DNA from: Holosporales bacterium
GTDB taxonomy: Bacteria; Pseudomonadota; Alphaproteobacteria; BNTO01
Direction: 5' to 3'
NCBI GenBank assembly: GCA_031258095.1
Contig: JAIRNK010000012.1
Coordinates: 1-47,403 of the forward strand
Length of the DNA stretch: 47,403 nucleotides
The position numbers and the translations under genes were made by a program. The notes under the pieces are model-generated. The model was not told the origin of the DNA. It worked only from the letters and a program-made list of their open reading frames with translations, and did not search any database. The stretch's first letter is position 1. Each line of letters begins with the position of its first letter. Positions 2,920 to 36,852 of this stretch are shown here, in pieces.

Positions 2920-4437
2920 ATGAAGGACTTATTTGAAAATACAAAAAATGATGACGCTCGCGCTGGTTTTTCTAGTGCGCAAGAAACCAAACGTTCGTGT
3001 TCTTTAGGTTTGGAATTTTTACTAAAAAAGGGGACCCCAAAGTGCATATCAGACGATGGGACGCCGTGTTTTCCCGGAAAGCAGGATCTCAGCGTTTTTC
3101 TCATAGATTATGCGGGGAACGAAGATGACATTTTGCCGTCCAAAGATGCAGATAAGTGGTTTGACAAACAACTAAACCATATGTTACCAAGATGTTCTGA
3201 TTTGGACCGCTTGGTGCTGCTGTTTCATTGCAAAAATTTCCCAATTGCGAGCACGGTCCCTTGCATGCTTAATGGCGGGGCTGGCGTCAACGAGTTTTCG
3301 GGAAGATACGCAGAGTTGCCAGATGTGTGCGTTTCGGAAGATACGTTGACCAACATGTTTGGCGCTTCTGCAAGTGCTAACCATAAGTTGATTAGCAGCT
3401 TTTATGGAGACAGATATAACGAGTACAGGGAACTAATTGATTCTGGCGTATCTAGAGAATTAAGCCGTGGGATACTGCCAGCTGGGCAATACACGGAATT
3501 TTTTACCCGACTAACCTTGTTTAATCTTATTAAATTTATAGAATTCTATGACAACGAAGATGATGCGTTAATGAAGCCCGTTATTGAACAAATGAAAGTT
3601 GTGTTTCAATTGGGCTTTCCGAAACTATACACCTTGTTTAAGAAAAGCCAATTAAGTTCCCAAGAAAAACTGTGGGAAAAGTTCTTGAAAACAGGCTCGA
3701 ACGCAAAGAACAAGACCTATCGCCGCAATTCTCCAAAACTAGAAGAATCCTGGGGAAAAAAGCACATCGTTCAGAACGAAAACGGGACTCCATTGGACGG
3801 CGACAAATGTTGGGTAAAAGTCATCGATTATTCTGGAACAGATAAGACGCCGCATGACGCGGTCGGAATGTCCATGGGCAATTTGACGTCTCCTACGTCG
3901 ATCGATAGTTTGGTCAATTTGCTAATTAGCTTAGGGCACTGTTCTCCATTTGAATTAACGACGCTCTATTTTGAGTCTCACGTGCCATTTTTCGTGTTTC
4001 GCCACATAATTCGTCATCGTTCGATGGGGATATACGACTGGAAGTTTTTGGATGAGGTGTTCGTTCCAGGCATTAGGCCAGAAGAAGGAAAGACGTTAGC
4101 GCCGGACGCGCATGCCAAGCTAAAGGCTTACACCGAAGCTGCATACAAAAAGTCGCTAGACGCGCGGGCCAGCATAAAGCATGATTCGCACGAAGCTGAT
4201 GTGCAATATATGATTTCGCCGGTAAGCCAATACGTTAGCTTCTTGGGCAGGATAGATATACACAATTTGGTGCACATTTTGAACTTGAGAAAGCATCCAG
4301 CCGCTCAATTCGAGACGAGAATGCTGGCACACACGTTGCAGAAAATTCTGGCTGACTGGGTTCCGGTTGTTTACAACGCGTTTATCTCCAACAACAAATT
4401 GGATGCCTTGCCCGGCAAATATAGCGAGGCGGCATAG
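2920..4437 (+). CDS. thyX: FAD-dependent thymidylate synthase-like protein, tandem ThyX domains in one chain
   Basis: N-half has NEFSGRYAELPD and GVSRELSRGILPAGQYTEFF; C-half has FRHIIRHRSM and LRKHPAAQFETRMLA. Start at 2920 follows a TAGGAG ribosome-binding site. Confidence 0.85.
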   Translation: MKDLFENTKNDDARAGFSSAQETKRSCSLGLEFLLKKGTPKCISDDGTPCFPGKQDLSVFLIDYAGNEDDILPSKDADKWFDKQLNHMLPRCSDLDRLVLLFHCKNFPIASTVPCMLNGGAGVNEFSGRYAELPDVCVSEDTLTNMFGASASANHKLISSFYGDRYNEYRELIDSGVSRELSRGILPAGQYTEFFTRLTLFNLIKFIEFYDNEDDALMKPVIEQMKVVFQLGFPKLYTLFKKSQLSSQEKLWEKFLKTGSNAKNKTYRRNSPKLEESWGKKHIVQNENGTPLDGDKCWVKVIDYSGTDKTPHDAVGMSMGNLTSPTSIDSLVNLLISLGHCSPFELTTLYFESHVPFFVFRHIIRHRSMGIYDWKFLDEVFVPGIRPEEGKTLAPDAHAKLKAYTEAAYKKSLDARASIKHDSHEADVQYMISPVSQYVSFLGRIDIHNLVHILNLRKHPAAQFETRMLAHTLQKILADWVPVVYNAFISNNKLDALPGKYSEAA

Positions 4438-8316: not shown

Positions 8317-9279
8317 TTAGTTAGACCATGGCCCCCACTGCGGCATTTGCGGCATTTGCTGGCCGCTCCCAGGTTGTCCAATATACTGCTGCGGCATTGG
8401 CGGCATTTGCTGGCCGCTCCCAGGTTGTCCAATATACTGCTGCGGCATTGGCAGCATTTGCTGGCTGCTCCCAGGTTGTCCAATATACTGCGGCGGCATT
8501 GGCAGCATTTGCTGGCTGCTCCCAGGCTGTCTAATATACGGCTGCAGTTCGTTTAGCGCTGCGGAAGCGATAGGAATGTCGATGCTATATCCCATCAACT
8601 TCAATCGTTCTAGCCAGAAATACGTGATAAGGACCCACCTCAAACCTGCTTTTGATTTATCAAACATTTCAGCTAGTGATTTTTTAGCATCTGCATACTT
8701 TTGATCAGATGGTTGGGTCGTCTGTAAAGTTTGTGTAAATTGAAATAAGGTCCCCACTATTTCTTGCACATAAGAAACCAGCTGACTGAATTTAGGCGTA
8801 CCATTGAGCATTTTTATTGATGTGATACACTGCGCTAGGACGTATAGAATATCTTCCGCACCGAAGTTCTGCGACATACACTCGCAGATTTGGGCTTCTA
8901 CTGCGTCGCTGACGGATTGAACGGCCAAACGTGGAGGTTGTATTTGATATGGAGCAAATCCACCGCCATCTCCTTGCCCCCCCTGTGGAAATTGTGTTGG
9001 AAATTGAGGCGCTCCACCGCCACCTCCCTGCCACCACTGTGGAAATTGAGGAGCTCCCCCGCCACCTCCTTGCCCCCCCTGACCAAAGAACGTTTGTCCT
9101 ATTGATTTCAACACGTTTCCCGAGGAGTTATCTGGTGTTTTATTTGTTGGTCCAGCGTTGGGTGTTGTTGGGGAGGGTGTTGGAGGTTTAAGCTTTTGAC
9201 CACGTCCTTCAGCAAATTGCCCTCCTAATAGGCAAAAGGAAACGACGCTAAATATTGTTGCTTTATTGGAACGAAACAT
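8317..9279 (-). CDS. secreted low-complexity protein with C-terminal Gln/Pro/Met/Gly-rich tandem repeats
   Basis: Signal-like N-terminus MFRSNKATIFSVVSFCLLGGQFAEG; Gly-rich block GQGGQGGGGGAPQFPQWWQGGGGGAPQFP; C-terminal QQYIGQPGSGQQMPPMP repeats. Confidence 0.7.
   Translation of the reverse strand: MFRSNKATIFSVVSFCLLGGQFAEGRGQKLKPPTPSPTTPNAGPTNKTPDNSSGNVLKSIGQTFFGQGGQGGGGGAPQFPQWWQGGGGGAPQFPTQFPQGGQGDGGGFAPYQIQPPRLAVQSVSDAVEAQICECMSQNFGAEDILYVLAQCITSIKMLNGTPKFSQLVSYVQEIVGTLFQFTQTLQTTQPSDQKYADAKKSLAEMFDKSKAGLRWVLITYFWLERLKLMGYSIDIPIASAALNELQPYIRQPGSSQQMLPMPPQYIGQPGSSQQMLPMPQQYIGQPGSGQQMPPMPQQYIGQPGSGQQMPQMPQWGPWSN
8339..8543. repeat. 51-bp tandem repeat, about 4 units
   Basis: GGCATTTGCTGGC(C/T)GCTCCCAGG(T/C)TGTC(C/T)AATATA recurs at 51-bp spacing; 17 aa per unit. 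Confidence 0.9.
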
Positions 9280-9373
9280 AGAACGCCTAAATAGATATGG
9301 TGTGTATACTGTTATGATAACGTTCATTTAACCGGCAAGTCAATCGTGCCAAGATTAATTGTTATTATTGGAT

Positions 9374-17764: not shown

Positions 17765-18760
17765 ATGATTAAGATAATTCCCGACAATGTAAATATCAAT
17801 TTTATTGGTCAAAAGAACAAAGTGTTTATACTGTCTTTTATCGTCATCCTAGTGTCGATGTTGTCGGTGCTCGTGACTGGTTTGAACTATGGCATAGACT
17901 TCAAGGGCGGATACGTTGTCGAAGCACGATTCCCCGTGGAGCAAAGTTTAGAAAACCTTAGACAAAAATTCGCGGCGAGCTCATTTGGAGACTTTTCGTT
18001 GCAGCAACTCGGCAAAGACGGCCGCGACATTGTGATGAAGCTCCAGAGCACAGACACCGATACAGATGCAATTGCTGATCAGCCCGAAGACCAAGCTGGT
18101 CAAACGGATTCGACAGAGGGGAATTCACGCTCAGAGAACAAGGTGATTGAACAAGTAAAGGCCGTGCTGGGAGAAGGCGTTGTCTACCGGCGCATTGAAA
18201 CGATTGGGCCAACGGTGGGCGCGGAACTCATACACAACGCAATAATAGCTGTTGTTTTGTCCATATTGGCCATTGCTATTTATATCGCCATTCGATTCGA
18301 GTGGCAATTTGCCGTGTGCGGAATGATTGCATTGGCCCAGGACTGCATTGGAGTTGTCGGTGCTTATTCTCTTCTAAAAATGGAATTTAACGCATCCGCG
18401 ATTGTTGCAATATTGACAACCGCGTCGTATTCGGTAAATGACTCAATCGTTATCTTTGACCGAATTCGCGAGAACATAAAGCGCCATCGCAAGATGCCAA
18501 TGCCGGAGCTGATAAATCGAAGCATAAACGAGACACTGTCACGAACGGTCCTAACTGCGGGGTCGACGCTGCTTGCAGTTTTGGCGCTCTGTTTATTTGG
18601 AGGAGAGGTCATTTCGGCCTTCAGCACGCCAATATTTATCGGCATCAGCCTTGGAACATTTTCATCGATTGCTTTGTCTGCGCCGTTGCTACTCCTGTTT
18701 AATTTGGACAGGGATAAGATTGCGGGAACACCAAAAGTCGTGGCAGGAACGGCGACCTAG
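17765..18760 (+). CDS. secF: protein translocase subunit SecF
   Basis: GLNYGIDFKGGYVVE, IGPTVGAELIHNAI, YSVNDSIVIFDRIREN. Confidence 0.95.
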   Translation: MIKIIPDNVNINFIGQKNKVFILSFIVILVSMLSVLVTGLNYGIDFKGGYVVEARFPVEQSLENLRQKFAASSFGDFSLQQLGKDGRDIVMKLQSTDTDTDAIADQPEDQAGQTDSTEGNSRSENKVIEQVKAVLGEGVVYRRIETIGPTVGAELIHNAIIAVVLSILAIAIYIAIRFEWQFAVCGMIALAQDCIGVVGAYSLLKMEFNASAIVAILTTASYSVNDSIVIFDRIRENIKRHRKMPMPELINRSINETLSRTVLTAGSTLLAVLALCLFGGEVISAFSTPIFIGISLGTFSSIALSAPLLLLFNLDRDKIAGTPKVVAGTAT

Positions 18761-18773
18761 TACATGGCGCGAC

Positions 18774-19613
18774 ATGTTGTTAAAAGCTCCAATAGCGCTG
18801 GTTGATGCCTTTGCAGATGTGCCGTTTAGTGGTAATCCTGCAGGCATTTGCTTAGTTGACGAATTCCCCGCTGACGTGTTGATGCAAAGTGTCGCATTTG
18901 AGTTCAATTGGTCGGAGACTGCATTTCTGGTTAGGCTGGAGCCGTCCTTCTATCACATCCGTTGGTTCTCTCCCTTGGACGAAGCCCCAATGTGTGGGCA
19001 TGCGACCTTGGCGGCTGCTCACTTTTTGTTTGAATACAATTATGTGATAGGATCATCCGTTGAATTTCAGTCGCTGTCTGGTCAATTAATAGTGACAAAA
19101 CAAACGAATGAAAATGGCGAATCCTGGCTTGTGATGGACTTTCCAGCCATCAGTGTGAAAGATTGCACTGATGCGGCGGAGGTTGAGTCGATCCAAGATG
19201 TGTTTGACGACGACAATATGACGGTCAATATAAAGAGTATATTAAAAGATTCAATACTCTACATTGTCGTGCTTGCAAATGAAGATGAAGTCCGGCGTTG
19301 CCGCCCGAATCTTGCAAAATTAAAAAAATTGCCGTGTAGGGCGATCTCCGTGACCGCCCAGTCGTCAAATGGGTGCGACTTCGTTTCTCGATACTTTGCT
19401 CCTCAAGTGGGGATTCCCGAAGACCCGGTCTGTGGATCATCTCATTGCCGGCTAGCACCGTTTTGGGCCAAGGCTTTGGGTAAGGACACGCTGGTTGCGA
19501 AGCAGCTTTCTCAGCGAGGGGGCGTATTGCACTTGTCACTGTGCCCGCAAACTAACCGTGTTAGCATCGCAGGACAAGCAAGAACGATATTAACGGGGCA
19601 AATGGCAATTTGA
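18774..19613 (+). CDS. PhzF family isomerase-like protein
   Basis: LVDAFADVPFSGNPAGICLV, FNWSETAFL, PMCGHATLAAAH, ISRYFAP-type motif, EDPVCGSSHCRLAPFWA, QRGGVL. Confidence 0.88.
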   Translation: MLLKAPIALVDAFADVPFSGNPAGICLVDEFPADVLMQSVAFEFNWSETAFLVRLEPSFYHIRWFSPLDEAPMCGHATLAAAHFLFEYNYVIGSSVEFQSLSGQLIVTKQTNENGESWLVMDFPAISVKDCTDAAEVESIQDVFDDDNMTVNIKSILKDSILYIVVLANEDEVRRCRPNLAKLKKLPCRAISVTAQSSNGCDFVSRYFAPQVGIPEDPVCGSSHCRLAPFWAKALGKDTLVAKQLSQRGGVLHLSLCPQTNRVSIAGQARTILTGQMAI

Positions 19614-32041: not shown

Positions 32042-33514
32042 TTAGCCAGCTGGCGGCGGTAATGTTGCAACAAGCCTTATTGACGCAGTTAATTCTTCCA
32101 TCTGGAAATGAGGACGCAGGTACACAACTGATCGATATGACCCCGGCTTACCTGGAATGTCGTAAACGTCAATGCGCGCCTCCCGTAGCGGGTACTTAGC
32201 CTTCACATTCTGTGGTGCGTCATCATTAAGTAAAATATAGTTAGCGATCCATGTATTTAAATAGTTAGAGATTGCGTCCTTTGTTAAGAAACTACCGATT
32301 TTATCGCGCATTATGACTTTTATGTAATGTGCAAAGCGCGATGCAGCCAACATGTACGGTAAACGAGCAGATAGACTGGCGTTCGCGTTCGCATCGTCTA
32401 AATTGTACACTTTAGGCCGCTGCGTTGTTTGCCCGCCGAAAAACGCGGCGTAGTCGGTACCCTTACAATGGCACAGTGCAATGAAGCCCAAGTCGCTTAA
32501 TTCTTTTTCTCGACGATCCGTGATAGCCGTTTCGGTCGGACACTTGAGAGCAATGTCCCCATCCGTTGTTTTAAACGTAAACGATGGTAAGCCTTTGACA
32601 ATCCCACCGCCCTCGACGCCTCTTATTGCTGCTGTCCACCCAAACAGGGCAAACGCGTTTGTGATTCTTTGGCTTAATATATACGCGGGGTTTGTCCAGC
32701 AAAACTTAGAGCTATCGGCTCCAGACACGTCTTCTTCAAAATTAAGGCCCTCAGCCGGCAGTGTATCCGCTCCGTATGGCAGGCGGATGAGGACTCGCGG
32801 CATTGTAAGCGCGATATAGCGTGACTCTTCTGTGTTGCGGAACGAATTCCATTTTATGAGTTCTAGGCTCTCAAACACTTTGTTCAAATCCCTTGGGACT
32901 CCAAGTTGTTCGAACGAATCTAGATCAAATAGCTTGGGATGAGCCGCCGCAATAAACGGCGCGTGCGCAGCCGCTGCAACCTCTGACATTTTAATCAAAA
33001 ACTCAACGTCCTGAGGGTGTCTGGTAAAGTAATAGTCGCCGAGCAAACACGAATATGGGTGTCCACCAAAGGTCCCGTACTCTTCTTCGTAGATTTTCTT
33101 AAAGAGCTGGCTTTGGTCGAACTCAACCGCAGTTTCCAAATCCGTCAGCAACTCCTTTTTCGTAGCATTAAACAATCGCAACTTAAGGTGAGTGCTCGTT
33201 TCCGTTTTCGACACAAGATAGTGCAGGCCTCGCCAAGATCCCTCAAGCGCCTGAAACGCTTCATGATGCATCACAACATTCAGCTGGCCCTGAATTTTTT
33301 CATCTATTTGGGCGATTATTGTGTTTATGAACGCTGCTGGATTGCTTCCAACCTCATCAGGATTTTCCTCTATCTGCGTGATGAACTCGCGAATTAAGTC
33401 TTCTGCAAAGGGGCGTTGCGTTTCGTCGCGAACTAACTTTCCGTCCTCAAACAAAACGTCTAGGGGCGACCGCGCACTGGCTTCAGTTGCTTCATTTGTT
33501 TCGTTGTCAGCCAT
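32042..33514 (-). CDS. tssC: type VI secretion system sheath large subunit TssC (VipB/IglB)
   Basis: ALEGSWRGLHYLVSKTETSTHLKLRLFNATKKELLTDL, FGGHPYSCLLGDYYF, MPRVLIRLPYG, PGSYRSVVYLRPHFQMEELTASIRLVATLP. Confidence 0.96.
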   Translation of the reverse strand: MADNETNEATEASARSPLDVLFEDGKLVRDETQRPFAEDLIREFITQIEENPDEVGSNPAAFINTIIAQIDEKIQGQLNVVMHHEAFQALEGSWRGLHYLVSKTETSTHLKLRLFNATKKELLTDLETAVEFDQSQLFKKIYEEEYGTFGGHPYSCLLGDYYFTRHPQDVEFLIKMSEVAAAAHAPFIAAAHPKLFDLDSFEQLGVPRDLNKVFESLELIKWNSFRNTEESRYIALTMPRVLIRLPYGADTLPAEGLNFEEDVSGADSSKFCWTNPAYILSQRITNAFALFGWTAAIRGVEGGGIVKGLPSFTFKTTDGDIALKCPTETAITDRREKELSDLGFIALCHCKGTDYAAFFGGQTTQRPKVYNLDDANANASLSARLPYMLAASRFAHYIKVIMRDKIGSFLTKDAISNYLNTWIANYILLNDDAPQNVKAKYPLREARIDVYDIPGKPGSYRSVVYLRPHFQMEELTASIRLVATLPPPAG

Positions 33515-35791: not shown

Positions 35792-36000
35792 CTGGCCAAG
35801 GTTCATAGCTGGCAAGAGATTCGCGTTCGGACGCATTCTTCGCGATCATATCCGTTAGCATTGGATCGTTGCCTCCTTATGCGCACCTGCTCACCCCCCA
35901 GCGTTGCCGTGAAAAGCGAAGCGCGGCCACGTGCACACTGTTTTCCCCGCTGGTAATTATGATAGACTACACACTGTTCAAAGGGTGTTGCGGAGCAGAT

Positions 36001-36852
36001 ATGGATTTTTGGGTGGTGGACACGTTTGCCAGCGTCGTCTTCGAAGGGAACCCTGCAGTTGTGTGCCTATTGGAAAAGGATTTATCCACCAATGTCATGC
36101 AGAATATCGCCAGAGAATTCAACGTTCATGAAACGGTATTCGTCACACCATTGCAAAATCAACACTTCAAAATTCAAATTTTTTCTCCTTGGTCGAATGA
36201 ACCTGTCTGTGGACATGGATTGATTGCAGCAGGGCACGTGTTATGGAACGAATTGAAGCTTCCAGGAATTGACCCTGATATCATATATTTCGACCTGCCA
36301 GCAGGAATTTTCATGATTTCGAACAGAAAAGATAAGATAACTGTCCACGCCCCTGCGAAGACAGCAGAACCTGCGCCGGCCCCCGATCGTCTAATAAACG
36401 CATTAGGAGCGCCTCCAATAGCTGTGAGCAGATGTGGCCAAATCTATGTGGTCGAAATGTTTAACCCCCGGCACGTCCTCAAACTGGAGCCAGATATCGC
36501 TAAGCTGGAAAAAATCCCATGTACCGGAGTCGTTGTTACGGCAGAAGGAGGAGGAGATGCACAGTACGACTTCATCTCAAGGTTTTTTGCTCCATCGCAA
36601 GGGTTCAAGGAGGATCCCGTCACGTTATGGAACCACTGCTTTTTGGCAACATACTGGGCTCACCGATTGGCTCGTAGCTCACTTGTTGCACATCAAAAAG
36701 CGAATAGAGGGGGCGATCTCTTCATCGAGTGCGTGCAGGAACAAGTTTTGATTTCTGGCAGTTGCATATCTTCAATGAAGGGGTCTACGTGTAATTGCTC
36801 AAACTGGTCAGGCATTAGCTTTAAACAGATGAGTCAAGAACGTGTTTTTTGA
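36001..36852 (+). CDS. PhzF family protein, second and divergent paralogue
   Basis: MDFWVVDTFASVVFEGNPAVVCLL, FNVHETVFVT, EPVCGHGLIAAGH, FISRFFAPSQGFKEDPVTLWNHCFLATYWAHRL, NRGGDLF. Confidence 0.82.
   Translation: MDFWVVDTFASVVFEGNPAVVCLLEKDLSTNVMQNIAREFNVHETVFVTPLQNQHFKIQIFSPWSNEPVCGHGLIAAGHVLWNELKLPGIDPDIIYFDLPAGIFMISNRKDKITVHAPAKTAEPAPAPDRLINALGAPPIAVSRCGQIYVVEMFNPRHVLKLEPDIAKLEKIPCTGVVVTAEGGGDAQYDFISRFFAPSQGFKEDPVTLWNHCFLATYWAHRLARSSLVAHQKANRGGDLFIECVQEQVLISGSCISSMKGSTCNCSNWSGISFKQMSQERVF

Follow-up and report, generated by a model that had tools for sequence, protein, structure and literature searches.

A tandem ThyX protein of a Holosporales bacterium whose two fused domains retain complementary sets of ligand-binding residues

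In a 47,403-nt stretch of Holosporales DNA (hereafter the window), we found a gene encoding two fused ThyX domains, each of which keeps the ligand-binding residues that the other has lost. From this residue pattern it is highly probable, in our judgment, that the protein is a working half-site ThyX, a pseudo-heterodimer of two divergent domains predicted to synthesize dTMP; that it binds FAD and makes dTMP, how its chains assemble and with what stoichiometry are what we infer from the pattern. The observations themselves are the gene, its two domains, their residue pattern, the conservation of that pattern and the failure to detect thyA or folA in the genomes of the order.

Results

The gene encodes two ThyX domains

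The initial annotation placed a fused tandem ThyX at 2920-4437, and this was borne out by an intact frame of 505 aa without an internal stop and by two matches to the Pfam Thy1 family (PF02511; E = 8.6e-28 for the whole protein, 97.9 bits against a cut-off of 24.8). Taken separately, the C part (residues ~301-483) matched Thy1 with E = 7.0e-18 and the N part (~93-209) with 5.5e-10, and the protein scored 100.3 for the NCBIfam thyX equivalog (TIGR02170, cut-off 87.9). The ATG start matches the invariant M1 of the relatives, and a TTG 42 bases upstream is a possible alternative. The best solved relatives are the ThyX proteins of T. thermophilus (6j61; phmmer 7e-19 for the C-domain) and T. maritima (TM0449), and the N-domain aligned to single-domain ThyX with an hhalign probability of 99.4. 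The architecture is as follows:

2920..4437, + strand: tandem ThyX gene (505 aa, ATG start, stop included)
2986..3039, + strand: N-terminal extension, residues 23-40 (TKRSCSLGLEFLLKKGTP), conserved and absent from single-domain ThyX
3091..3639, + strand: N-terminal ThyX domain, residues ~58-240 (Pfam, hhalign and secondary structure)
3802..4389, + strand: C-terminal ThyX domain, residues ~295-490 (Pfam; phmmer to 6j61)

Within the extension, T23, R25, C27, S28, G30, E32, F33, L34, G38, T39 and P40 are invariant (7 sequences), and the pattern TxRxCSxGxEFLxxxGTP stands upstream of the N-domain in every homologue of the order.

AlphaFold modelled the full protein (mean pLDDT 74, pTM 0.67) with a similar order of secondary-structure elements in the N and C halves. 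The matches listed by Foldseek against the PDB were nearly all ThyX structures, the TM0449 entries reaching a TM-score (target) of 0.80 over one domain length. The pLDDT fell below 50 at residues 118-129, a part of the retained N-domain loop, and the N-domain modelled alone was poor (pLDDT 52).

The two domains keep opposite sets of ligand residues

We aligned the window protein with TM0449, T. thermophilus ThyX and 26 alphaproteobacterial single-domain ThyX proteins, using the residue numbers of T. maritima (Tm), and an independent profile-profile alignment agreed. First, the N-domain retains the dUMP-loop residues N85, E86, S88, R90 and Y91 together with R147, and lacks R78-H79-R80, R174 and Q180/E182, the last three positions being occupied by Y, D and L. 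In both alignments MLNGGAG occupies the position of FRHRIAS and VNEFSGRY that of YNELSGRY, with no gap separating the two; RELSRGILP is intact and YDNEDDAL stands in place of the AQWEI stretch. Second, the C-domain is the exact reverse. It retains HCSPFE, FRHIIRHR, DIHNLVH, LNLR and AAQFETR, while a shorter IYDWK replaces the NExSxRY segment (YNELSGRY), VQYMISP replaces VARIVLP and R147 is Y. All the motif strings quoted for the two domains in the initial annotation are present and correctly placed. The segments concerned are:

3268..3276, + strand: L117 N118 G119, site of the lost RHR, N-domain (alignments)
3289..3309, + strand: N124-Y130 (NEFSGRY), retained predicted dUMP-binding loop (Tm N85-Y91), N-domain; N, E, S, R and Y invariant in 8/8
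3454..3468, + strand: R179-R183 (RELSR), retained Arg segment (Tm R143-R147), N-domain; residue 179 is R or K
3937..3954, + strand: H340-E345 (HCSPFE), retained H53, T55 (as S) and E58, C-domain (alignments)
4012..4020, + strand: R365 H366 R367, retained RHR, C-domain (alignments)
4027..4047, + strand: G370-F376, site of the lost NExSxRY loop, C-domain (alignments)
4255..4275, + strand: D446-H452 (DIHNLVH), retained predicted FAD-contact segment (Tm N163-N169), C-domain (alignments)
4288..4290, + strand: R457, equivalent of Tm R174 (dUMP), C-domain (alignments)
4306..4320, + strand: Q463-R467 (QFETR), equivalent of Tm Q180-Q184, C-domain (alignments)

Jointly the domains supply R78, H79, R80, S88, R90, Y91, R147 and R174, and neither contains the contiguous RHR...S motif of standard single-domain ThyX. 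Since RHR occurs only in the C-domain and SxRY only in the N-domain, the protein is a variant of ThyX and not a standard one. The split is identical in all eight distinct tandem sequences of the order, a set drawn from its genomes and four Holosporales bacterium records, with the window counted.

The split follows the subunit contributions to a ThyX site

In M. tuberculosis ThyX, subunit A contributes Arg95-97 (RHR) and Arg199 to a site, subunit B contributes Ser71 and Arg190, and subunit C contributes Ser105, Arg107 and Tyr108, the lid residue (PMC6514825, a structure review); in the PBCV-1 enzyme, monomer A provides Gln75 and Arg182, and monomer B provides Ser88 (PMC3498832). By our own mapping from motif spacing, Mtb 95/105/107/108 correspond to Tm 78/88/90/91, Mtb R199 to Tm R174, and Mtb S71 and R190 to about Tm T55 and R165. 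On this mapping the N-domain has none of the four subunit-A residues (R78, H79, R80, R174) and all four subunit-C residues (E86, S88, R90, Y91), while the C-domain has 4/4 and 0/4, respectively, and carries the B-type residues as well; in one alignment the N-domain also has Ser at the B-type T55 position. With position B set aside, we calculate the chance of such sorting under random loss as 1 in 70 per domain. The kept and lost residues thus sort exactly by donor subunit, which bears out the complementary active-site halves seen by the initial annotation and makes its hetero-type site across the domains the best-supported reading (PMC6514825, PMC3498832).

Over the 76 columns conserved in single-domain ThyX, 15 were lost in the N-domain only, 22 in the C-domain only, 5 in both and 34 in neither, and the losses were not found to be anticorrelated; the complementarity is therefore specific to the ligand-binding positions. 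Since the split mirrors the subunit division of the ThyX site, only one of the two reciprocal sites would bear the losses, and each chain should be left with one heterotypic site. Such a split would be the expected outcome of duplication, fusion and decay of a redundant site, and would be unexpected if one domain were merely dying.

We propose the following arrangement. Ordinary ThyX builds four sites from four identical subunits; subunit A gives each site its RHR and R174, B gives additional FAD contacts and C gives the S88-R90-Y91 dUMP loop, so that two adjacent subunits form two reciprocal sites. In the tandem protein, one of these would have decayed in both partner domains. At the site that is left, the part of subunit A (FAD, RHR and R174) may fall to the C-domain, and that of subunit C (dUMP loop and R147) to the N-domain. 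The B-type residues sit in the C-domain as well, so in a pair of chains the two FADs would be held by the two C-domains, with the two N-domains as caps, giving two sites per pseudo-tetramer and one FAD per chain.

Distant tandem ThyX proteins carry the same split

When viral contigs were searched with the alignment of the Holosporales tandems, there was no match, and every match that tblastn listed for the window protein in phages and plasmids was a ThyX of single-domain length. Distant tandems surfaced only through a viral fold search (Foldseek), among them BAF36111 of Microcystis phage LMM01. From the LMM01 protein, tblastn led to tandems of Microcoleus and Vibrio phages, of Tunturiibacter phage Tunturi_5 and of a Miltoncostaea plasmid; further tandems were found on Euzebya and Parabacteroides plasmids, in Yong phages and in 18 metagenomic viral contigs. 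Two of them, in Vibrio phage Yong MS32 (L162:1001-2386) and Microcoleus phage My-WqHQDG (L134:1501-3012), are annotated "hypothetical". A 508-aa match of the fold search in Roseobacter phage RD-1410W1-01 was rejected as a tandem, having one Thy1 domain with a complete RHR..SGRY.

In the common alignment of 15 distant tandems, the N halves all carry E-S-R-Y/F (Tm E86, S88, R90, Y91) and R147 but have lost RHR; the C halves all carry RHR and R174 but have lost R147 and the ExSxRY loop. The same split was seen when the 18 viral contigs were scanned for motifs, except in L172, without an SxRY match, and in L177, which is shorter and has no clear N-half motif. An apparent swap of H53-type residues between domains in the two tandem groups was dropped as alignment-dependent. 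Because phage, plasmid and metagenomic-virus tandems carry the same split, the half-site tandem is a recurring class and not peculiar to the window; the initial annotation, which had singled out the degree of complementarity in this gene, was not upheld on that point.

These data also bear on a rival view, in which the C-domain would form an enzyme by itself, a homo-oligomer where new residues take the place of the dUMP loop, and the N-domain would be a structural or regulatory pseudo-enzyme. The C-domain does retain the FAD contacts and gives the better alignment to solved ThyX, and its replacement loop, MGIxxWxF, is itself conserved. However, the dUMP loop missing from the C-domain is precisely what the N-domain holds, invariant in all eight sequences, the N-domain's own FAD residues being gone; distant tandems retain the same loop; and S88, R90 and Y91 would be needless in a merely structural partner. 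We therefore regard a self-sufficient C-domain as unlikely.

Thymidylate pathway genes in the order

The tandem ThyX is most likely the thymidylate synthase on which this organism relies, each pseudo-tetramer having two sites. Neither thyA nor a further ThyX, which the initial annotation had named as evidence against a shared site, was found in its own genome; that genome is ~75% complete, and a second synthase could be missing from it. Across the order, neither thyA nor DHFR (folA) was detected in any of nine genomes. All nine are metagenome-assembled and 74-91% complete, which makes single absences weak and joint absences stronger. ThyX is typical of genomes without folA (PMC1971073). A dUTPase was found in 6/9 genomes, and ribonucleotide reductase is represented by class III (NrdD) in eight and by class I/II in none, which suggests life without oxygen.

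Thymidine kinase is present in five of the nine genomes, the window's own among them, and a TLC-type nucleotide transporter in all nine, so dTMP synthesis may be non-essential here. The same genes would suit a tandem protein that no longer makes dTMP and catalyzes another flavin or nucleotide reaction in a cell living on salvaged or imported thymidine nucleotides; in two genomes (G007 and G004) the kinase was present and ThyX was not found in these searches, and G007 in particular fits such a cell. Against this, the two domains jointly hold the complete set of FAD and dUMP ligands, folA is undetected here, as is usual for bearers of ThyX (PMC1971073), and in four genomes the tandem ThyX is present with no kinase detected, so that ThyX is the sole dTMP route seen there. 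We consider the loss of dTMP synthesis improbable, more so than a C-domain acting alone.

Conservation and distribution within the order

The tandem gene is present in 7/9 genomes of the order, its homologues being 51-81% identical to the window protein. Both domains are conserved about equally (dN 0.13 for N and 0.09 for C in the nearest pair, with dS saturated), and selection on the gene is purifying, of a strength left unquantified by the saturated synonymous sites. Although the genome is reduced, host-associated and metagenome-assembled, a decaying gene or an assembly artefact is scarcely credible, given a frame intact in eight assemblies and strongly conserved amino acids beside saturated synonymous sites. 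Genome sets of the class (387) and of the phylum (399, partly the same genomes) showed no other tandem among the matches listed; these matches were mainly alignments to the C-domain, in open frames mostly of single-domain length.

The gene neighbours of the tandem ThyX differ among relatives, so its genomic context is uninformative. By reading, two ORFs of the window (18573-19613 and 35869-36852, + strand) resemble PhzF-type isomerases, and in L012 a PhzF-like ORF adjoins the tandem ThyX. Elsewhere in the window, a 490-aa ORF (32042-33514, - strand) resembles by reading the type VI secretion sheath protein TssC/VipB, and a repeat-rich protein with a signal-like N-terminus (8317-9327, - strand) contains a 51-base unit in 4 copies (8338-8545).

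One fusion or several

In trees of the domains with single-domain ThyX, a sister relationship of the two Holosporales domains was neither supported nor rejected (AU p = 0.43). A single fusion would predict that the N halves all group together and likewise the C halves. On 203 aligned columns, with very long branches, such a tree was rejected (AU p = 0.011), and separate duplications in the two tandem groups were allowed (AU p = 0.36). As the sequences are very divergent and poorly aligned, a single fusion is only weakly rejected, and long branches may have drawn the halves of one protein together. It is thus possible, though less likely than not, that half-site ThyX had repeated origins by fusion, one in Holosporales and others among phages or bacteria with plasmids, each time with the dUMP half as the N-domain and the FAD half as the C-domain. 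Such repetition would point to an order-specific route from a four-site homotetramer to a two-site pseudo-heterotetramer.

Discussion

If the fused half-site reading is correct, the tandem proteins offer a natural test of why the ThyX site is divided among subunits, and with one site per chain, domain-specific mutants would leave no second site affected. They also define a class of thymidylate synthase that a standard RHRx7S motif search misses, including genes annotated as hypothetical, in a family proposed as an antibacterial target. The literature searched, with most subscription journals outside its scope, yielded no description of a tandem or half-site ThyX; the split thus seems undescribed, and would be less novel if work on the chlamydial enzyme or subscription literature describes it. 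The ThyX of Chlamydia, the likeliest precedent, is presumably long, of double length. Chlamydiae have thyX and lack thyA (PMC5954106).

The window protein has precedent in long ThyX proteins that went unremarked. Those of phages (LMM01 BAF36111, 491 aa, PHROG 36506; Microcoleus, Tunturi_5, Vibrio BONAISHI and Yong) are tandems with the same domain order as the window protein, their N half having ExSTRY and R..LLP and their C half RHR and an R174-type LR. The LMM01 group is only ~14% identical to the window protein (Foldseek), neither appears among the other's tblastn matches, and hhalign showed no specific likeness between their N halves (probability 0.5). The plasmid proteins of Bacteroidota and Actinomycetota, from Parabacteroides distasonis (WP_009276148), Miltoncostaea oceani (WP_217924789) and Euzebya pacifica (WP_164711104), annotated as FAD-dependent thymidylate synthases, likewise have two Thy1 domains with the same split. 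Unlike the window protein, they score below the NCBIfam thyX cut-off (42-71 against 87.9), and their C-domains have motifs like NRRHKPGRALE where the window protein has HCSPFE.

With the single-domain, homotetrameric ThyX (FDTS) of TM0449, M. tuberculosis and PBCV-1, the window protein has its fold in common and, taken as a whole, matches their FAD, dUMP and catalytic residues; their site is shared between subunits, and we propose the same for the window protein. It differs from them in that its domains are fused and neither has a complete RHRx7S, and two sites rather than four would be expected per four domains.
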